Below are positions 3,113-63,953 of a stretch of DNA of 64,000 nucleotides, in pieces; the first letter of the stretch is position 1, and each line of letters opens with the position of its first letter. The notes beneath the pieces are model-generated. The model saw only the letters and a list, made by a program, of their open reading frames with translations. It was not told where the DNA came from and did not search any database. The position numbers and the translations under genes were made by a program. Source of the DNA: Sulfurovaceae bacterium (GTDB lineage: Bacteria > Campylobacterota > Campylobacteria > Campylobacterales > Sulfurovaceae); NCBI GenBank assembly GCA_028714675.1, contig JAQTLV010000003.1, forward strand, positions 124,001 through 188,000, written 5' to 3'.

Positions 3113-5712
3113 TATGCGAGTAAGCCTTTTTTGGGTCCACTTGTTCCGCAACAATTTTTATATTTTTTACCACTTCCGCAAGGGCAATCATCATTTCTTT
3201 TTGGTTTTTTTGTTGAAGAAGATGGTGTTTTGGCACTATTCTTTGGTTTTTCTAAATCTTGTGCCATTTCATTTTTCATGTTTTCTATCTGTTCTCGCTC
3301 ATCCGTTTCATCCAAAAAGTCCAACTGTATAATTTGCAATGTTTTTACAGCTTCAAATTTTATTCTATTAATCAAATCTGCAAATAGGCGGAAACTATCT
3401 TGTTTGTATTCAGTTAGTGGATCTTTTTGATTATATCCTCTTAGTCCAATACCAGTTTTTAGTGTATCCATCTCGTATAAATGTTCTCTCCACTCTTTGT
3501 CCAATATCTGAAGATAAAGGATTCTCTCTATCTCATCTCTTTGTTCTTTAGTAACTTTTGACATTTTTGATTCATATTGACCAGCCATATTTGCAAAAAT
3601 AAGGTTGCTTAATTCTTCATAGTTTTTATTTTTAAGTAAATCTATATCTGTTATAAACATTAACTCTTCTTGAAGTAGAAGTTGGAGTTTTTCTAAATTA
3701 AATTCAGATTCATCCATTGAATCATATATTTCACATTCTGACAATAGATAACCTATATACTCAATTCTATTTTCTTCTATTTTGGAAGATATATTAAAGT
3801 TTGTATCTAGAAGTTGATTTCTAAAACCATATATTGCTTTTCTTTGGTGGTTGGCTACATCATCATATTCCAATATATGTTTTCTTGATTCATAGTGCAT
3901 ATTCTCAACTTTTTTCTGAGCTTTTTCAACACTTCTAGTAACAAGTTTTGAATCTATATATTCTCCATCTTGTACACCTATTTTATTCATAATACTTCTG
4001 ATTTTTTCACCACCAAAAATTCTTAAAAGATTATCATCCAAACTCAAGTAAAATTGACTTTCTCCAGGATCGCCTTGTCTTCCACTTCTTCCTCTTAATT
4101 GATTATCTATTCTTCTACTTTCATGTCTTTCCGTACCAAGTATATAAAGACCACCAAGTTCTCTTACTTCATCTGTAATTTTTATATCAACACCACGACC
4201 TGCCATATTTGTTGCAACAGTAACGGCACCTTTTTCTCCAGCACGCATGATTATTTCTGCTTCTTGTTCATGATTTTTTGCATTAAGGACATTGTGGGTA
4301 ATTTTTTCTTTTTTTAGTCTAGTGTTTATCATTTCACTTTTTTCTATTGATGCAGTACCAACTAGAACAGGCTGTCCTTTTTTATGCAACTCTTTTATTT
4401 TTTTTACAACAGCATCAAGTTTTTCTCTTTCTGTATTATATATGAGGTCATTTTTATCCATTCTCATTACTGGAATATTTGTAGGAATAGAGATAACATC
4501 AAGATTATATATTTGAGCGAATTCACTAGCTTCTGTTTGTGCAGTTCCAGTCATACCAGAAAGTTTGTTGTATAGTCTAAAATAGTTTTGGTATGTGATT
4601 TCAGCAAGTGTTTGACTCTCTTCTTTGATAAAAACACCTTCTTTTGCTTCTAGCGCTTGATGTAATCCTTCACTATATCTTCTGCCTTCACTTAGTCTAC
4701 CTGTAAATTCATCAACTATTATAATCTCATCATCTTTAATCACATAATCAACGTCTTTTTCAAAAAGATATTGTGCTTTTAATGCTTGATCTAGATGATG
4801 AGAAAGAGCAGCATTTTCTAAACTATATAGGTTATCAACTTCAAACAGTTCTTGTGCTTTGCTAAGTCCATCTTCTGTCATTATTATTATACGATTCTTT
4901 TCATCAACAATAAAATCTCCAGTTGTCTCTTCTGGCTCTCCTGCTTTTGTTTCCTTTTTTTCGCCTCGTATCATTTGTAGCGCTATTTTATTTGCAGTAT
5001 CATAATGTTTTTGTTCTCTTCGTGCTGGACCAGAGATTATTAGTGGTGTTCTAGCTTCATCTATCAAAATGGAGTCAACTTCATCTACAATTGCAAAATT
5101 ATGCTCTCTTTGAACTTTTTCTTCAGCTCTAACTTTCATATTGTCTCTTAGAAAATCAAAACCATATTCATTGTTTGTGCCATAGGTTATGTCAGAATAA
5201 TATTGAGCTTTTCTAGTAACTTCATCATATAGTCCAGATATTATACACCCAGTACTAAATCCTAAAAACTCATATAATTTTCCCATTTCCTCAGAGTCTC
5301 TTTTTGCCAGGTAGTCATTTACTGTAATTACATGAACACCTTTGCCGCTCATTGCATTTAAGATAACTGCAAGTGTCGCCACAAGCGTTTTACCTTCACC
5401 TGTTTTCATTTCTGCTATATCGCCTTGATGTAAAACAAGTCCACCAACCATTTGTACATCAAAATGACGCAATCCTAAAACTCTTTTACTGGCTTCTCTA
5501 GTTATAGCAAAAGATTCATTTAATACATCATCAATTGTTTTACTTTCATTTTGAACACTTGTTTTTAGTTCTAAAAAAGCATTTTTGAGTTCATCATCAC
5601 TTAAATTCAAATAGTTTTCTTCTAAAGCATTGATTTTTTCAACTCTCTTGAGTAGTTTTTTTACCTTTTTGTCGTTTTGTGTTCCAAAAATTTTATTTAA
5701 GATGCCCAACAT
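3112..5712 (-). CDS. secA: Preprotein translocase ATPase SecA
   Basis: Motor ATPase that drives export of unfolded preproteins through SecYEG. The 866-residue protein shows Walker A MKTGEGKT (102-109), the [19 protein letters not shown] block, [17 protein letters not shown], the [25 protein letters not shown] helicase motif and a C-terminal zinc-binding [13 protein letters not shown] tail after an acidic/Lys-rich linker. Length and all blocks are standard. The stop overlaps the start of the lolC/E permease gene by one base, so they are probably co-transcribed. Divergent from lolA. Confidence 0.98.
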
Positions 5713-56370: not shown

Positions 56371-57906
56371 ATGATGAGAGCATTAATAAGCGTAAGTGAC
56401 AAAAGCGGTGTAGTAAATTTTGCCAAAGAGTTAGTATCTTTGGGCTATGAGATAATCAGTACAGGTGGAACATACAAAGCTTTACAAGAGGCAAATATAG
56501 CTGTCATAGAAGCCAACGAAGTTACAAAATTTCCAGAATGTTTTGAAGGGCGTGTAAAAACACTCAATCCATATATTCATGGTGGTATACTCCACAGACG
56601 AGACAAGCAATCACATTTAGACCAAGCCAAAGAGCTAGGTGTTGTGGGGATAGATCTCGTTTGTGTTAACCTCTATCCGTTTAAAGCAACGATTGAAAAA
56701 ACAGATGATTTTGAAGAGATTATAGAAAATATAGATATAGGTGGACCTGCTATGGTTCGCTCTGCTGCTAAAAATTTTGATAGTGTGATAATAGTAACTG
56801 ATGTGGCTGATTATGATTTAGTATTAAATAATATTAAGAACAATACAAACACAGTAGAGTTTAGAAGAGACTTGATGATAAAAGCGTATGAGCATACAGC
56901 AGCGTATGATAGTATGATAGCAAACTATATGAATAGTAGATTTAATGGTGGCATGGGGCAAAAACAATTTATCGTCGGCTCTAAAGTATTTGATACAAGA
57001 TACGGCGAAAACCCACATCAAAAAGGTGCATTGTATGAGTTTGATGAATTTTTTACTAAAAATTTCAAGCAAGTAAAAGGCGAAGCAAGCTTTAACAACC
57101 TAACAGATATAAATGGTGCAATCAAAATAGCTGCAAGCTTTGGTAGCAGAGGTGCTGTATGTATAGTCAAACATGGCAATCCATGTGGTTTTGCACTAAA
57201 TGAAGACTTAACACAGGCTTACATCGATGCACTCAAATGCGATAGCATCTCTGCTTTTGGTGGTGTTGTAGCAGTAAATGGTGTTGTGAGCAAAGAACTT
57301 GCACTTAAAATGAATGAAATGTTTTTAGAAGTTGTGATAGCTGGCGATTTTGAACCTGCTGCACTTGAAGTTTTTGAGAGTAAAAAAAGACTCAAACTCT
57401 TCTCTTATGGAAGTGATAAATTAGTGCTTGCAAATGATAAAAATGACTTTAAACATATCGATGGTGGTTTTGTGTATCAAGACAGCGATATAGTCAAAGA
57501 TTCTGAAGTTGCAAATGCTCTAAAACAAGGAACGCTAGAAGCAGGTGATGCTCAAATGAAAGATTTGGAGATCGCTTATAAAATCGCAAGTCTTACTAAG
57601 TCAAACTGTGTAGTGTATGTCAAAGATAGTATGATGGTAGCTGTAGGTATGGGTATGACAAGTAGAGTTGATGCAGCACAATGTGCACTTAAAAAAGCCA
57701 AAGAGATGGGGCTAGATGTAAGCGGTGCGAGTATGGCAAGTGAAGCATTTTTCCCATTTCGTGATAGCATAGATGCAGCTGCAAGTGCTGGGATAAAAGC
57801 TATCATTGAACCAGGCGGAAGTGTGAGAGATGATGAAGTCATTGCTGCTGCGAATGAGCATGGCATCGCACTATACTTTACAGGCACAAGACACTTTTTG
57901 CATTAG
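56371..57906 (+). CDS. purH: Bifunctional AICAR formyltransferase/IMP cyclohydrolase
   Basis: Last two steps of IMP synthesis. N-terminal IMP cyclohydrolase (MGS-like) domain ([35 protein letters not shown]) and C-terminal AICAR transformylase domain ([69 protein letters not shown] end). 511 residues. Last core gene before the accessory island. Confidence 0.97.
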
Positions 57907-58109: not shown

Positions 58110-58164
58110 TATAATTATTAGAACAAGTATGCATTCCACCTCAGGAGAGGTGGAACGAGAGAAA
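58110..58164 (+). repeat. TTCCACCT hairpin repeat, copy 3 (55-bp unit)
   Basis: Stem TTCCACCTC / GAGGTGGAA (58134-58142 and 58147-58155) with a 4-base loop. The whole 55-bp unit, including a TATAATTATTA-type left part and GAGAGAAA on the right, matches 61896-61950 with only two differences by eye. It lies 15 bases before the attC-like site at 58179. Confidence 0.85.
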
Positions 58165-58178
58165 GTTATTCAGCAAGA

Positions 58179-58248
58179 GCATAACAAATCATAGGAGTCA
58201 ATCAAAAACCCGTAGGCGGCTTTTTGATTGTTCATTTTAACATTAGAT
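58179..58248 (+). other. Degenerate attC-like site
   Basis: R''-like GCATAAC (58179-58185), then a stem CAATCAAAAA-c-CCG (58199-58212), loop TAGG, CGG-c-TTTTTGATTG (58217-58230), and ATTAGAT (58242-58248) in the R' position. The stem is nearly identical to the well-formed site at 62061-62132. The R' box reads ATT instead of the GTT needed for cleavage, so the site is probably inactive. Confidence 0.6.
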
Positions 58249-58286: not shown

Positions 58287-60005
58287 ATGGACAGAATAAC
58301 TAAGAAGCTTTTACAAGATTTTTTAGAAGCTCAAGAAATGGATACAGGTGACGAGTCCTCCGACTTTGAACTATTTTGCAACTACTCTGTACTTGCCAAT
58401 GAATACAATAAAACGTTTGATGTAAAAAGTATTACTGTAGGAGCAGGTGCAGATACAGGTATTGATGGAATTGCAATTATTGTAAACGGGCATCTGATAG
58501 AAGATACAGATGAAATTGATAGTCTACTGGAAGCAAATGGATATTTAGAAGTAACATATCTGTTCATCCAAGCCAAAACTTCGTCTAATTTTGATACAAA
58601 AGAAATGCATGCATTTTACTTTGGAATTAGTGATTTCTTTGCTGAAAATCCAAAATTGGCTAGAAATGAAGACATCAAAAAGTTTGCCGAGCTTTCAGAG
58701 TATTTACTTGATAACGCATCAGAGTTTAAAGACAACCCTGTATGTAAGACTTTTTATATAACTACAGGTGTTGTAAACGAGGACCAAAATATATCAGCTG
58801 TTATTAACTCTTCTGTTGCGGACTTAGAAAGCTATAATCTTTTTGAGCGTGTTGAGGCAAATGTACTTGGGGCAAATGAATTAGGAAAACTCTATAGAAG
58901 GACTAAAAATCCCATCACCTCTAAATTTACATTCGCGAACAAAGTCACTCTTTCAGATATAGAAGGGATTGACCAATCATTTTACGGCGTAATTCCATTC
59001 TCTGAGTTTAGAAAGCTATTGATAGATAATAATGGAAATATTCAAAGCATTTTTGATGATAATGTTCGAGATTTTCAAGGAATCGGAAATTTGGTTAATG
59101 GCAATATTAATGATACATTGAACAGTGAGTTACCTGATCTGTTTAGTGTACTAAATAATGGAGTAACAATAGTTGCAGACTCCATTAAAACATCAGCAAA
59201 TTCATTGACAATTACTGATTATCAAATTGTGAATGGATGTCAAACAAGTAATGTTCTTTATGAGAATCGTAATAATGAAAATATTAATAATATTAATATA
59301 CCTTTGCGGCTAATAGTAACGACTGATGAAGATGTAAAGTCAAAGATTACAGTTTCTACAAACAATCAGACTGCTATCAAAAAAGAACAACTTGCGGCAA
59401 TGTCTGATTTTCAAAAAAATCTTCAACACTACTATGATTCCATAAATGGAGAAGGTAAGTTATTTTATGAAAGAAGGGCAAAGGAATATAATTCAGATAG
59501 AAATGTTGTAAAGAGAAAAGTAATTACTATCGCAAATCAGATTAAGTCATATTCTGCAATGTTTAGTAAAAATCCTCACTTGGTTACGACATACTTAGGT
59601 ACGCTAGTCAAAACAATGGGAAATAAAGGCTCAAATTTATTCGAAGAAGACCATCAATTCTCTCCATACTATATGGCTGGATTAGCATTTTATAGATTAG
59701 ATTCTCTATTCCTTAATGGAAGCATTGACAAAAAATACAAAAAAGTTCGTTTTTACATTTTAATGCTCGTCCCTATGATTGCTAGTAGTGAAGATTTTCC
59801 TCCTCTAAATAGTCAAAAAAAGTGTGAGCGATTCTGTAGTCCTATTATTAAAAAGTTAAATGATGAAAATATATATCCACGCATATTTCAAGAAGCAGTG
59901 AAGGTTATTGACAACTCTGGATCGGATGTTGAGGATAAGCAAGCATTAAAGTCAAGGTTAATGACAGATAAAATTCTAGATGCCTATGCTGGCGAGAAAA
60001 TCTAA
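58287..60005 (+). CDS. AIPR-family protein with Mrr-like nuclease N-terminus
   Basis: 572-residue protein of the AIPR (abortive infection phage resistance) family. The N-terminal 140 residues look like a restriction-endonuclease fold: GIDG with Asp60 and FIQAK with Gln95-x-Lys97 give the D...QxK form used by Mrr-type enzymes. The AIPR core follows (SIFDDNVRDFQGIG.VNGNINDTL, FSVLNNGVTIVADSI, YQIVNGCQTSNVLYEN, TNNQTAIKKEQLAAMS). No methylase is nearby. RBS AAAGGA. First gene of a three-gene set with the 4TM protein and the nucleotidyltransferase; likely defence, by inference. Confidence 0.88.
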   Translation: MDRITKKLLQDFLEAQEMDTGDESSDFELFCNYSVLANEYNKTFDVKSITVGAGADTGIDGIAIIVNGHLIEDTDEIDSLLEANGYLEVTYLFIQAKTSSNFDTKEMHAFYFGISDFFAENPKLARNEDIKKFAELSEYLLDNASEFKDNPVCKTFYITTGVVNEDQNISAVINSSVADLESYNLFERVEANVLGANELGKLYRRTKNPITSKFTFANKVTLSDIEGIDQSFYGVIPFSEFRKLLIDNNGNIQSIFDDNVRDFQGIGNLVNGNINDTLNSELPDLFSVLNNGVTIVADSIKTSANSLTITDYQIVNGCQTSNVLYENRNNENINNINIPLRLIVTTDEDVKSKITVSTNNQTAIKKEQLAAMSDFQKNLQHYYDSINGEGKLFYERRAKEYNSDRNVVKRKVITIANQIKSYSAMFSKNPHLVTTYLGTLVKTMGNKGSNLFEEDHQFSPYYMAGLAFYRLDSLFLNGSIDKKYKKVRFYILMLVPMIASSEDFPPLNSQKKCERFCSPIIKKLNDENIYPRIFQEAVKVIDNSGSDVEDKQALKSRLMTDKILDAYAGEKI

Positions 60006-60028
60006 GAGATAAAAGAGAGGAATCTAAA

Positions 60029-60850
60029 TTGAATAGTTTAGAGCATTACTATACATCAATATATGATGAAGCAGATATTTATTCAGCTTGGAGAATATTT
60101 ATTTTATCATTATTATTTATATCTCTAGGTTGTTCGGTATATACTCAGGGTATTTGGCTATATGTTTCTGCATTTTCTGTTATTTTGTTTCAAATAATAG
60201 TTTGGGTGCTGAAAATTAAAATTAATAATCTAAATACCCTAGCTCATAACTTTCAAAAATACGCCCTTTTAACTAAAGTTTTTTCTAATGCTTTCGATGC
60301 AAATGAAATTTCAGATTTAAAAAGACAAGTGAGTTTATATGTTAGTAAAAAAGCAAAAGAGAAGGAGGATGAAGGTATTAGTTCTGTTGAGTACACAAAA
60401 TTTCAAAATATTTCTAATATAAAAAAGTTACAAATGATGATTCATGAAAATAGTTACTTTAATCATTATTTATATGAAAAAACATATAAAAGAAATTTTT
60501 ATATATCCTTAATATTAATTTTAATATCTATTATTCCGCTAGTATATCTTGCGCCACTTATTAAATTAGATTCAGATTTGTCTATTCCTAGATTAGTTTT
60601 TTCTCTTTTATCATTTACATTAATTTATGAGTTTATTGAAAATACTTATAATTATAAAAAAACATCACAGGCAATGAAGAATATCGATAGTTATTTATAC
60701 CAAAATAGTTCATTAAATGATAATGTAATAACTGAAATATTCTCTAGATACAATGAAGCTAAGTTAATAACGCCCAATATCCCCAATTCTATTTACAAAA
60801 AGTATGAAACTAGAATAAATGAGTCCTGGAATGAACGTGCCAAGTATTAA
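60029..60850 (+). CDS. S-4TM-like putative pore-forming membrane protein
   Basis: 273 residues with two TM pairs: about 22-38 and 42-61, then 157-177 and 186-203, separated by a 95-residue charged helical cytoplasmic segment and followed by a 70-residue helical tail. This topology matches the S-4TM type of effector described next to nucleotide-signalling defence proteins; no sequence motif beyond topology is claimed. Start TTG with GAGAGGA. It overlaps the downstream nucleotidyltransferase gene by 20-32 bases, so the two are made together. AT-richer than the flanking AIPR gene. Confidence 0.65.
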   Translation: MNSLEHYYTSIYDEADIYSAWRIFILSLLFISLGCSVYTQGIWLYVSAFSVILFQIIVWVLKIKINNLNTLAHNFQKYALLTKVFSNAFDANEISDLKRQVSLYVSKKAKEKEDEGISSVEYTKFQNISNIKKLQMMIHENSYFNHYLYEKTYKRNFYISLILILISIIPLVYLAPLIKLDSDLSIPRLVFSLLSFTLIYEFIENTYNYKKTSQAMKNIDSYLYQNSSLNDNVITEIFSRYNEAKLITPNIPNSIYKKYETRINESWNERAKY

Positions 60851-61316
60851 TAGGCAATTAAACTTGTTATATACTGAATTATCTTCAGTAACTGAAAAAT
60901 GGGCAATTACTGGAGGAAGTAATCATTTTATAAGAAAGATTGATAATTCTATTAATGATATTGACATTATAACAACAGCTAAAGGTGGAGAGGAGATAAC
61001 AAAAGCACTTGAACAATATTTAATTCAAGAATATAAATTTAGTGTATGCAATACAATTAAATCTTATTTCGGAGTTTTAAATTATAAAGGTATAAAAATT
61101 GAAGTTATGGGAGATCCAATCAATTTTATTAAAAACAAGTGGATTGAAAATCATGTTTGGAAAAATAATATAGAATTTGTTGGTTGTAAAGATTTTATAT
61201 TACCCCTAACTACTCTTAAATATGAATTATATATCTATAAATTACTAAAAAATCAATCAAAAGTTGAGAAATTAGGAATGTTTAACAAAAATAGTAATAA
61301 AGAGGTTGCTAGATAG
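60819..61316 (+). CDS. Small nucleotidyltransferase-fold protein
   Basis: 165 residues (161 if the ATG at 60831 is used). Polymerase-beta-type nucleotidyltransferase motifs: TGGS (31-34), then NDIDII with Asp47 and Asp49, and a third acidic residue in GIKIEVMGD (Glu95). It is too small for a CD-NTase of CBASS; closer to antitoxin-like or aminoglycoside-type NTases of the AbiEii/MNT kind. Overlaps the 4TM gene. Could be an AMPylating or nucleotidylating control on its neighbours. The stop lies at the start of a GGGGCAGGT element. Confidence 0.75.
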   Translation: MSPGMNVPSINRQLNLLYTELSSVTEKWAITGGSNHFIRKIDNSINDIDIITTAKGGEEITKALEQYLIQEYKFSVCNTIKSYFGVLNYKGIKIEVMGDPINFIKNKWIENHVWKNNIEFVGCKDFILPLTTLKYELYIYKLLKNQSKVEKLGMFNKNSNKEVAR

Positions 61317-61393: not shown

Positions 61394-61466
61394 GGGTCAG
61401 GTGATGAAAATAAACCACAAAAAAATACCTATAATTTTTACAGAAATTTATATATAATTGTTGTTG
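61394..61466 (+). repeat. 66-bp direct repeat with promoter-like end, copy 1
   Basis: Positions 61401-61466 are identical base for base to 63863-63928, and both are preceded by a GGG(T/G)(C/G)CA(G/A)GT-type word (here GGGTCAGGT, 61394-61402). The repeat ends in TATATATAATTGTTGTTG, containing TATAAT at 61453-61458, 38 bases before the next start codon. A diverged copy lies at 62621-62685. Confidence 0.85.
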
Positions 61467-61496
61467 GATAAAGAAGTTAGTTGCATAAGGTAAGAG

Positions 61497-61817
61497 ATGA
61501 GTATTCATAGGCTAATCGGAATAATTTTTGCTATCTTTTTTCTGCTTGTATTTACAGGAATGGTTGATTGGTTTAACGGTATCCAAGAGGTTTTAAATAC
61601 CAAAGAAGAATATGTTGCAGGTAGAGTAGCAGATGGAATAGGAAGTATCTATTTGTTTGCAATACTTGGTGTAATATTTCTTATTTTTCCAGCCCAACTA
61701 ACAAAAAAATTTATTAAACCTCCAGAAGGTTCTCCTTTTGATGATTCGACAATATGGTTAATATGGGGATATCTTTTTGTGCTATCAGATATCGGTCTTA
61801 TGTTTTTGCTTGGATAA
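61497..61817 (+). CDS. Hypothetical three-TM membrane protein
   Basis: 106 residues, not recognised. TM helices at about 5-24, 50-67 and 86-105 with a short charged loop (NGIQEVLNTKEEYVAG) and a Pro/Gly-rich loop. Driven by the promoter-like 66-bp repeat copy 1. No RBS stronger than AAGGTAAGAG. Probably an accessory gene of the island. Confidence 0.65.
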   Translation: MSIHRLIGIIFAIFFLLVFTGMVDWFNGIQEVLNTKEEYVAGRVADGIGSIYLFAILGVIFLIFPAQLTKKFIKPPEGSPFDDSTIWLIWGYLFVLSDIGLMFLLG

Positions 61818-61895: not shown

Positions 61896-61950
61896 TATAA
61901 TTATTAAAACAAGTATGCATTCCACCTCGGGAGAGGTGGAACGAGAGAAA
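61896..61950 (+). repeat. TTCCACCT hairpin repeat, copy 4 (55-bp unit)
   Basis: Stem TTCCACCTC (61920-61928) / GAGGTGGAA (61933-61941), loop GGGA. Same orientation as copy 3 and two bases different from it over 55 bp. Together with inverted copy 5 it brackets the cassette remnant, the attC site and the DUF1493 gene. Confidence 0.85.
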
Positions 61951-62060: not shown

Positions 62061-62132
62061 ATACAACAAATCAGAGGAGACCAATCAAAAAGCCGCAGGC
62101 GGTTTTTTGATTGGTCATTGCAAACGTTATAC
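62061..62132 (+). other. Integron attC recombination site
   Basis: 72-bp site: R'' ATACAAC (62061-62067); a 13-bp perfect stem GACCAATCAAAAA (62079-62091) / TTTTTGATTGGTC (62104-62116) continued by a G-T wobble and CCG/CGG; 4-base terminal loop; and R' GTTATAC (62126-62132). The outer boxes are only partly complementary to each other, but R' is exactly complementary to GTATAAC at the end of the next cassette, as cassette excision requires. Orientation agrees with the genes: attC follows the gene it belongs to. Confidence 0.78.
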
Positions 62133-62151
62133 CTACTGAGGGAAAGACATT

Positions 62152-62532
62152 ATGAATAAACCGTCATTCGAGGAAGTTGTCGCTTTTGTACGAGGCTTCC
62201 ATAGTATTTCTCCTAAACAGGCTATTACATCCGACACACTCTTGGAAGCTGATCTTGGAATAACTGGAGATGATGGCGATGATTTACTACTAGCGGTAAG
62301 TGAACGATTCCAGGTCGACCTTGCATCACCAGAAAAAGGTATCAGTCAAACGCTTGAACTGAGACCGAATGAATTTTTGTTTGGTCCGGAGGGATTCGAT
62401 CCAATAGGCATTACAGTGCTTATTCGATGGCTCAAAGGTGAGCCACGACCGATATATCGTGATTTAACAATAGGAGAACTACATGATGCCATACAAAAAG
62501 CACCATCATCCACTTCTGGCATTAGGGTATAA
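62152..62532 (+). CDS. DUF1493-family acyl-carrier-like protein (integron cassette gene)
   Basis: 126 residues. The signature LGITGDDGDDLLLAVSERFQVDL (about 35-57) is that of DUF1493, a small helical family with an acyl-carrier-protein-like fold that lacks the phosphopantetheine Ser. Such genes are frequent in integron cassettes. Base composition is visibly richer in GC than surrounding genes, indicating transfer. Its start lies 20 bases after the attC R' box, and its stop codon is inside the next R'' box (GTATAAC). RBS GAGGG. Function unknown. Confidence 0.85.
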   Translation: MNKPSFEEVVAFVRGFHSISPKQAITSDTLLEADLGITGDDGDDLLLAVSERFQVDLASPEKGISQTLELRPNEFLFGPEGFDPIGITVLIRWLKGEPRPIYRDLTIGELHDAIQKAPSSTSGIRV

Positions 62533-62573
62533 CAACACATTGGAGACCAATCAAAAACCCGCGGGCGGCTTTT
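62527..62573 (+). other. Left half of a second attC site (truncated)
   Basis: GTATAAC (62527-62533), then GACCAATCAAAAA (62545-62557), CCG-CGGG-CGG and TTTT (62570-62573). The remaining right arm (..TGATTGGTC..GTTRRRY) is missing; at 62574 the sequence switches to the inverted hairpin repeat. GTATAAC is the exact complement of the GTTATAC that starts this cassette. Confidence 0.75.
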
Positions 62574-62574
62574 A

Positions 62575-62607
62575 GCTCGTTCCAACCATCCTAAGGTGGA
62601 ATGCATA
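62575..62607 (-). repeat. TTCCACCT hairpin repeat, copy 5 (inverted)
   Basis: Read on the minus strand this is TATGCATTCCACC...GGAACGAGC, the same unit as copies 1-4 in reverse orientation; one arm has an extra base (TTCCAACC against GGTGGAA). It abuts the broken attC half exactly at the breakpoint. Confidence 0.75.
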
Positions 62608-62620
62608 CGATAATTTAAAT

Positions 62621-62685
62621 TCCCAAAAAATCCAATAACTTTATAGAAATTTATATATAATGGTTTTTAAATAAAGAGTTATGTG
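62621..62685 (+). repeat. Diverged copy of the 66-bp promoter-like repeat
   Basis: Aligns with the right part of the 66-bp repeat: CAAAAAATCCAATAAC-TTTATAGAAATTTATATATAATGG, followed by ATAAAGA-GTTA that also matches the bases after copy 1. The GAAATTTATATATAAT core is identical. It precedes the NTF2-like gene by about 75 bases, so all three copies lie upstream of a gene. Confidence 0.65.
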
Positions 62686-62738
62686 TAAAAATTAAATTCT
62701 ATGATTGTATAATCTATAAATATAAACAAGGGGATGTA

Positions 62739-63203
62739 ATGAATAAAATAATAAGATTATTTGCTGTATTGATATGTATGGTTGTTTTCTCTACAGCTAA
62801 TGCAAATGATTTAACTGGGCAAACTATCAATGTATTTCTTGGTAATATTGATAAAGCCATCGTTGCAAAGAATACGAGTTTGATTTCAGATACATTAAGT
62901 GAGCATGTTATAATAGTTGTCAATGTGAAAATGCAAGGTCAGAATCGTGTTCTTAAACTTACTAAAACAGAATATGTATCTATGCTAGAGCAAGGTTGGT
63001 CTGCATGCAAAAATTATAAATATGCTCGGACAAATGTAAGTATTAAAATTAAAAGTAACAGAGCATTTGTCACTTCAGATGTCAAAGAATCAATGACTGT
63101 GCAAGGCAAAAAAATATCAGGTATATCAAAAGAAGAAACAACGATAGAATTGGTTGATGGTCAACCATTAGTTACTAAAATAGTTGGATATACAAGTATG
63201 TAG
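62739..63203 (+). CDS. Secreted NTF2-like (DUF4440-type) protein
   Basis: 154 residues: signal peptide MNKIIRLFAVLICMVVFSTANA, then a single SnoaL/NTF2-like domain (INVFLGNIDKAIVAKNTSLISDTLSEHVIIVVNV...YVSMLEQGWSACKNYKYARTNVSIKIKSNRAFVTSDVKES). No catalytic residues are evident; such folds bind small ligands. RBS AAGGGG. Ends 1 base before hairpin copy 6. Composition is AT-rich like the host. Confidence 0.75.
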   Translation: MNKIIRLFAVLICMVVFSTANANDLTGQTINVFLGNIDKAIVAKNTSLISDTLSEHVIIVVNVKMQGQNRVLKLTKTEYVSMLEQGWSACKNYKYARTNVSIKIKSNRAFVTSDVKESMTVQGKKISGISKEETTIELVDGQPLVTKIVGYTSM

Positions 63204-63204
63204 C

Positions 63205-63230
63205 CGTTCCACCTCTCTTGAGGTGGAACG
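63205..63230. repeat. TTCCACCT hairpin, copy 6 (stem only)
   Basis: CGTTCCACCTC (63205-63215) and GAGGTGGAACG (63220-63230): a perfect 11-bp stem with a TCTT loop, directly after the NTF2-like stop codon and before the frameshifted gene. It lacks the TATGCA left flank of the other copies. A terminator role is possible, but no U-run follows. Confidence 0.75.
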
Positions 63231-63248: not shown

Positions 63249-63807
63249 ATGAAAGTATTGCGTTTATTGTTTTTGTTTTTTGGGCTAATGCTACTGTCGC
63301 AAATAGCATATTCAGAACCACAGAGATTTGTCGTCGTTGGGCGTGGACTTATTTTTGCACTTGCAGAACCGGCTGGATGGAAGATGGACACAGAGAGTGG
63401 TGCCAGAGATGGTTTGCCTGTGGTGTTCTATCCCTCAACCCAAACTTGGGATACCGCACCTGCGGTGATGTACGCGAATACAGCTATAAAGAAATGTCAG
63501 CCGAGTCCTAGCTTGGTCGCATTCATTAATGACGATGTAAACGAAATCAAAAGCCATGACCCTAGCCTGCGTGTAAGCGATGGTGGCACCATTGAGTGCG
63601 GACGGAAGAATAGTGACCCTAAAGAAGTTCTCGGGTGACCGCTATGGCAACCATGAAGTTGTTGCGTACATAAATGAAAAAGATGTGTTCGTTTCTTTTA
63701 CGCTTAGCACAAAGAATCCCCAACAATATAAGGCTGCTATTTCATCATTCAAAATGCTGGTCACAAGCTATCAATATGTAGGGAGTTCTGGCGGCTGTGC
63801 AAAATAG
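63249..63807 (+). pseudogene. Frameshifted secreted-protein gene (probable former cassette gene)
   Basis: Frame 1 (63249-63638) encodes a signal peptide (MKVLRLLFLFFGLMLLSQIAYS) and FVVVGRGLIFALAEPAGWKMDTESGARDGLPVVFYP...; the next frame continues TLKKFSGDRYGNHEVVAYINEKDVFVSFTLSTKNPQQYKAAISSFKMLVTSYQYVG to a stop at 63805-63807. The change of frame falls at about 63600-63630 and needs one extra base or two missing. The joined product would be about 185 residues. GC-rich relative to the host, like the DUF1493 gene, so likely acquired. A sequencing error cannot be excluded. Family not recognised. Confidence 0.75.
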
Positions 63808-63854: not shown

Positions 63855-63928
63855 GGGGGCAAGTGATGAAAATAAACCACAAAAAAATACCTATAATTTT
63901 TACAGAAATTTATATATAATTGTTGTTG
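63855..63928 (+). repeat. 66-bp direct repeat with promoter-like end, copy 2
   Basis: 63863-63928 is identical to 61401-61466 and is preceded by GGGGGCAAGT, a variant of the GGGTCAGGT word at copy 1. It ends 25 bases before the start codon of the gene at the right edge. Confidence 0.85.
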
Positions 63929-63953
63929 AATATGGTTTGAGTAAGGGAATAAA

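Follow-up and report, generated by a model that had tools for sequence, protein, structure and literature searches.

Clusters of attC sites lacking an integron integrase, or CALINs, are recognized under the IntegronFinder definition (PMC9024848). How they originate is an open matter, with stray insertion, integrase loss and rearrangement under discussion (PMC8618304). Campylobacterota are already among the phyla listed as bearing integrons (PMC8618304), and two CALINs are reported for Sulfurovum sp. NBC37-1 (PMC10295459, Table 1). The locus described here, from the chromosome of a sulfur-oxidizing, Sulfurovum-like bacterium, matches the CALIN definition (PMC9024848) in having at least two attC sites within a few kilobases, oriented with the genes and with no intI nearby, but differs in adding attI/Pc-like repeats and in having one complete attC only. 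The NBC37-1 CALINs (PMC10295459) share its Sulfurovum lineage and the presence of attC without intI; however, they appear in that source as a table entry, which gives no account of attI or cassette closure. The CALIN of Shewanella prophage M16-3 (PMC9892861) is, in the literature searched, the one precedent for a CALIN beginning at an attI, being an intI-less array whose first element is an attI of the type found in its host lineage. A complete integron is also present in the phage, whereas the genomes of the Sulfurovum-like genus that we searched lack intI, and the orphan attI sites described below lie at conserved chromosomal addresses. Finally, the sedentary chromosomal integrons of relatives (G203, G252 and G129) have a near-identical type of attC (~69–72 nt) and show cassette closure, but possess intact intI, attI and long arrays.

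attC sites and a gene cassette downstream of purH

The window, the whole 64-kb stretch of DNA that was analyzed (G000:C3:124001–188000), belongs to a genome (G000) of 1.75 Mb in 18 contigs that is 99.8% complete. Since its purH is 86–94% identical to the nearest Sulfurovaceae/Campylobacterales records in a purH search, the chromosome is Sulfurovum-like and of the Campylobacterota type that the earlier note had recognized. An island bounded by purH and a rhodanese gene extends from 57907 to ~C3:191270. As the purH–rhodanese gap is only ~0.1–1.2 kb in many relatives, the island represents a variable insertion region. The features of the locus are listed in Table 1.

To identify attC sites, we gathered candidates within 20 kb of intI genes (TIGR02249) in other Campylobacterota genomes and derived a covariance model, R1, from 35 aligned intI-neighboring candidates, none of them from the window's genus. 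R1 is lineage-specific and, like the R2 model described below, home-made; the training sites of both were computed, without experimental proof, and their E-values are rough. A pattern scan that combined the boxes with folding yielded many false candidates, and the covariance model took its place; an Rfam scan of the window at gathering thresholds reported tRNA only and no attC.

As the earlier note had predicted, R1 matched sites beginning at 58179, 62061 and 62527; the best remaining match in the window scored 15.1 bits. The first two are also significant genome-wide (E = 8.4e-7 and 1.6e-5, respectively), while the third, taken alone, is not (E = 0.136). On the bottom strand, attC 2 folds into one hairpin of 13 + 3 bp with a 4-nt loop (DNA dG −14.8, z −5.7, with 0 of 200 shuffles equally stable), which, together with its R1 score, bears out the layout of boxes, long stem and 4-base loop proposed for it. 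The genome does contain other such sites, as R1 located additional attC at C4:716–784 and C4:1448–1519, beside a 5S rRNA gene. Near-identical attC exist in relatives, for example at L130:14946–15017, near intI in G305.

When a cassette inserts into an integron, the R'' box of its attC is expected to be complementary to the R' box at the cassette's own start. Here GTTATAC (62126–62132) and GTATAAC (62527–62533) are exact reverse complements at 7 of 7 positions. A single match of this kind, taken alone, amounts to a coincidence of ~7%, as the background is 6.8% for random pairings and 6/79 between both boxes within one site. In intI-bearing relatives, we compared 54 pairs of successive attC separated by less than 1.3 kb, and closure was exact (7/7) in 39. 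This excess over background, combined with the 7/7 match here, makes it most likely that the unit 62126–62573 entered as a closed cassette, and the reading of the two ends as the closure of a cassette circle holds. Other parts of the description given in the earlier note fared unevenly. The cassette gene is indeed GC-rich (43% versus 32% for the window), but its match to DUF1493 falls below the Pfam cut-off; the matching attC ends are real with respect to closure, but the right-hand attC is truncated.

Two of the sites have decayed. In attC 3, the right arm and R' box are replaced by a REP-like palindrome from ~62571–62573; with the site truncated after ~62573, the cassette is left without a working right attC. 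The R' box of attC 1 reads ATTAGAT instead of the expected GTTAGAT, having lost the G of GTT, and there is also a 1-nt deletion; judged from its damaged R' box, this site is probably inactive.

The palindrome, GTTCCACCTC...GAGGTGGAAC, occurs in the window at 58127–58164, 61913–61950, 62571–62608 and 63205–63228 and often adjoins attC in the island. We rejected an integron link for the GTTCCACCTC palindrome, as it is a genome-wide REP-like repeat. Also rejected was the identification of a 25-bp repeat, GGGTCAGGTGATG..., as the end of an insertion sequence, since it borders a Y1_Tnp (RAYT) gene of contig C1. This gene (G000:C1:119894–120747; L202 1395–2248) has inverted REPs of 24–25 nt on both sides, GGGTCAGGTGATGAAAATAAACCAC, and its REP also heads three of the island repeats.

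Among the cargo genes, those for the AbiU/AIPR, 4TM-effector-like and nucleotidyltransferase-like proteins are consecutive at 58287–61316, between attC 1 and attC 2, and this row is probably phage-defense cargo. The 154-aa protein encoded further downstream appears to be secreted, and an overlapping pair of frames at 63249–63807 resembles one secreted protein with a frameshift (a pseudogene or a sequencing error). The DUF2569 membrane-protein gene behind the last repeat extends past the window end.

Table 1. Features of the island in window coordinates, followed by intI fragments at orphan attI loci (integrase residues)
Feature	Position	Strand	Evidence or remark
purH	56371..57906	+	left flank of island, purL upstream
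attC 1	58179..58248	+	R1 49.0 bits, E 3.2e-8; hairpin z −6.2
AIPR/AbiU-type phage-resistance protein	58287..60005	+	PF10592 147 bits; PADLOC AbiU 407 bits
Membrane protein, 4TM-effector-like	60029..60850	+	PADLOC 'Effector 4TM' 43 bits
Nucleotidyltransferase-like protein	60819..61316	+	PF10706 at cut-off, 21 bits
Repeat, RAYT-type REP end (61394–61418) + AT-rich attI/Pc-like segment TATATAATTGTTGTTGGATAAAGAAGTTAG	61394..61480	+	
106-aa membrane protein	61497..61817	+	86% identical homologue at purH locus of Sulfurovum clone C5 (L024)
attC 2, complete; ATACAAC...GTTATAC, R' box 62126–62132	62061..62132	+	R1 43.3 bits, E 6.1e-7
Gene cassette, begins GTTATAC, ends in attC starting GTATAAC	62126..62573	+	7/7 closure
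Cassette gene, 126 aa, DUF1493-like	62152..62532	+	PF07377 18.0 bits, Pfam cut-off 21
attC 3, left half only	62527..62573 (R1 match 62527–62591)	+	R1 25.8 bits, E 0.005
REP-like palindrome, inverted copy in broken attC 3	62571..62608	-	at least 23 matches in genome
attI/Pc-like repeat TATATAATGGTTTTTAAATAAAGAGTTATG, before gene at 62739	62640..62690	+	R2 13.4 bits, E 0.0023 in 20 kb
154-aa protein	62739..63203	+	no family above cut-off
Repeat, REP end + attI/Pc-like segment, before DUF2569 membrane-protein gene	63856..63940	+	
intI fragment, L267	residues 1–34		88% identity
intI fragment, L362	residues 263–315		92% identity
intI fragment, L366	residues 224–315		67% identity
intI fragment, L372	residues 34–62		59% identity
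intI fragment, L379	residues 9–74		47% identity

Integrases and attC across the phylum

We searched for intI with the TIGR02249 profile at a cut-off of 265 bits and, for a looser count, at E ≤ 1e-40. No intI over the cut-off was found in G000 or 10 congeners (11 genomes), where the best matches reach ~60 bits, the level of Xer-like proteins. The 64-kb window contains no integrase, as the earlier note had stated, and no intI fragment was found in G000, near the island or elsewhere. A complete integron (intI, attI and Pc) is therefore not what this genome holds, given best intI matches of ~60 bits against the 265 required. What it holds is a CALIN, with the three attC sites lying within 4.4 kb and no intI over the cut-off in the genome. 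The overall proposal of an integron gene cassette in a chromosome of the Campylobacterota type is thus sustained by R1 and closure, in the form of a CALIN with one clear cassette.

In the literature searched, reports of integrons from this phylum are indeed rare, but integrons themselves are common there. In one draw of 397 Campylobacterota genomes, scored with stricter filters and with contig gaps that could hide intI, the integrase exceeds the cut-off in 34, some of the same family as the window's genome, and is detected in 43 at E ≤ 1e-40. R1 (E ≤ 1e-4) detects attC in 93 of the 397: 39 of the 43 genomes that have intI, and 54 of the 354 that lack it. Integron parts are present in roughly one-quarter of the sampled Campylobacterota, a phylum whose members include vent and sediment autotrophs, and these parts carry accessory genes, including those for phage defense.

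attI/Pc sequences with and without an integrase

To characterize attI and Pc in this lineage, we searched the cassette side of intI in the 26 intI loci that had sufficient upstream sequence. The search pattern, AAATAGTT, is present in all 26 and takes the form AATAAATAGTT in 25, usually with a TATAAT-like box at a fixed spacing before the attI core. AATAAATAGTT is almost invariant at attI across Campylobacterota families, with the TATAAT box just ~7–8 bp upstream of the core. A sequence-only model built from the 26 intI-proximal sites, R2, is short and AT-rich. At E ≤ 1e-5, R2 matches 84 of the 397 genomes, 51 of which lack intI; 37 of these 51 also have attC (p ~1e-25 for the association within intI-less genomes, which are not independent). 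We examined 40 R2 loci from intI-less genomes, and attC played no part in their selection. Of these loci, 21 have attC on the same strand within 5 kb downstream and 2 have it upstream, with a second attI accounting for one of the 2. In intI-less congeners of the window's genome, R2 matches (E 1e-6 to 1e-10) lie 0.4–1.6 kb upstream of same-strand attC, and the attI core is intact in several of them. Specialists may be surprised by how often Campylobacterota without intI retain a conserved attI/Pc at fixed positions.

An intI fragment occupies the expected place and orientation at five orphan loci (Table 1), of which four belong to the 40 examined and the fifth, L267, comes from the window's genus. 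For these loci at least, an origin by integrase loss is supported. Weak integrase matches of 22–25% identity in L363 and L383 were not counted as intI fragments but attributed to other tyrosine recombinases. In L267 (G364:C5:379500–387000, 4500–5250), a tandem attI lies behind pyrF and a tRNA gene. The order is attI, a partial frame fused to the first 34–39 intI codons, the intI intergenic region, a second attI and cassettes; this arrangement is a frozen picture of integrase loss. A recognizable lineage-specific attI lets the origins of CALINs be distinguished from sequence alone, and in this case it indicates integrase loss at several loci.

Some addresses recur among relatives. In G251 and G139, attI/Pc and cassettes lie behind a 5S rRNA gene (identified with Rfam). 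G000:C4 aligns to G251 from the 5S gene through the promoter and has a damaged core, AATAAATTGTAAG. The genes behind the three 5S loci differ, and blastn similarity is essentially confined to attC. A tRNA gene precedes attI in both G364 and G400, and the purH loci of L024 (G397) and L090 (G364) contain attC and attI/Pc-like copies.

The island itself has six AT-rich copies of a repeat, each before a different gene. In three, TATATAATG is followed by AATAAAGAGTTA at a spacing equal to or within one base of that in intI-proximal attI (R2 13.4–16.6 bits; E 0.0002–0.002 in 20 kb, genome-wide E 0.02–0.35). The other three are joined to a RAYT-type REP end, match R2 partially and deviate after GAATA. 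For the TATAAT box followed at fixed spacing by AATAAATAGTTA, the copies of G000 are weak (13–18 bits, genome-wide E 0.007–0.35), while those of congeners reach 40 bits. Scans for sigma-70 promoters and terminators were at shuffle background. By their sequence, the repeats are possible worn copies of attI/Pc. The competing idea that they are ordinary promoter repeats unrelated to attI is a serious one, if not the one we prefer, since their R2 scores are low, their AT content is extreme and the three REP-joined copies deviate as described. However, the other three keep the attI spacing, and outside the island the genome has no copy of the repeats except for their REP part.

Origin of the island

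We consider it very probable that the sites are genuine attC and that the region between purH and the rhodanese gene, a CALIN, represents the decayed array of cassettes that belonged to a chromosomal integron platform. Counting against this are that only one of the three window sites is a complete attC, that the 3.9-kb stretch from attC 1 to attC 2 is long for one cassette, and that the attI-like scores in G000 are weak, with the three REP-linked copies matching in part. As to how the region arose, an integron that lost its integrase is most likely, rather than a recipient of stray cassettes, although for the purH locus loss is a matter of inference because no intI fragment was found in G000.

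Could an integrase acting in trans have inserted the cassettes off-target, at a locus that never had its own intI or attI? Off-target insertion is among the proposed origins of CALINs (PMC8618304), and both the lack of an intI fragment near the island and the contiguity of purL and purH in G000 fit it. Nevertheless, we think it unlikely: the island contains attI/Pc-like copies, two congeners (L024/G397 and L090/G364) have them at their purH locus as well, and orphan attI precede attC at syntenic loci, some with intI fragments.

More doubtful still is that the orphan attI continue to function, served in trans by an IntI that resides on a plasmid, a phage or in a minority strain and is missing from the assemblies. 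The 5S rRNA locus, where the same address has different cassettes in three species, favors this, as do the intact attI cores of several intI-less congeners and the finding that one intI match can accompany up to 8 attI matches, as in G165. However, the 11 genomes searched yielded no such IntI, and in G000 the degraded attI-like copies and broken attC suggest no recent use. A further reading, which we offer as a speculation with the odds against it, is that attI plus promoter constitutes a stand-alone landing site at fixed addresses (5S rRNA, tRNA gene, purH) in this genus and many Campylobacterota, exchanging cassettes without an intI in the genome and served in trans by transient integrases. 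If so, CALINs would be platforms, not debris.

It is very improbable that the box match is a coincidence and that the palindromes represent REP-type intergenic repeats or bidirectional terminators: the attC stem core, AAAAAGCC..GGCGGTTTTTT, looks terminator-like and REP-like palindromes are genuinely present in the island, but the attC constitute a low-copy set of their own (5 places), their conserved boxes lie beyond the stem, the best two match a model trained near intI with E 1e-6 to 1e-8, the terminator scan made no call on them and cassette closure is systematic in relatives.

Under the preferred reading, a decayed array whose integrase was lost, the cassette at 62126–62573 would have arrived as a closed circle, and IntI would have recombined the folded bottom strand of its attC next to the older attC at 62061, leaving the complementary GTTATAC and GTATAAC ends. 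The array has eroded since then, with mutation of the attC 1 R' box and interruption of attC 3 by the REP-like palindrome. The platform would have lost its own intI rather than received stray cassettes, and the AT-rich island repeats may be worn copies of attI/Pc and drive the genes that follow.

Two further observations concern integron structure elsewhere in the phylum. Multiple attI/Pc copies, tandem or scattered, occur within one genome at L353, L372, L378 and L387 and in G165, the genome with 8 matches. In another family of the order, an intI gene and attC array lie between purL and purH (L135; G074:C1:310000–329900), with one stop codon in the intI frame.
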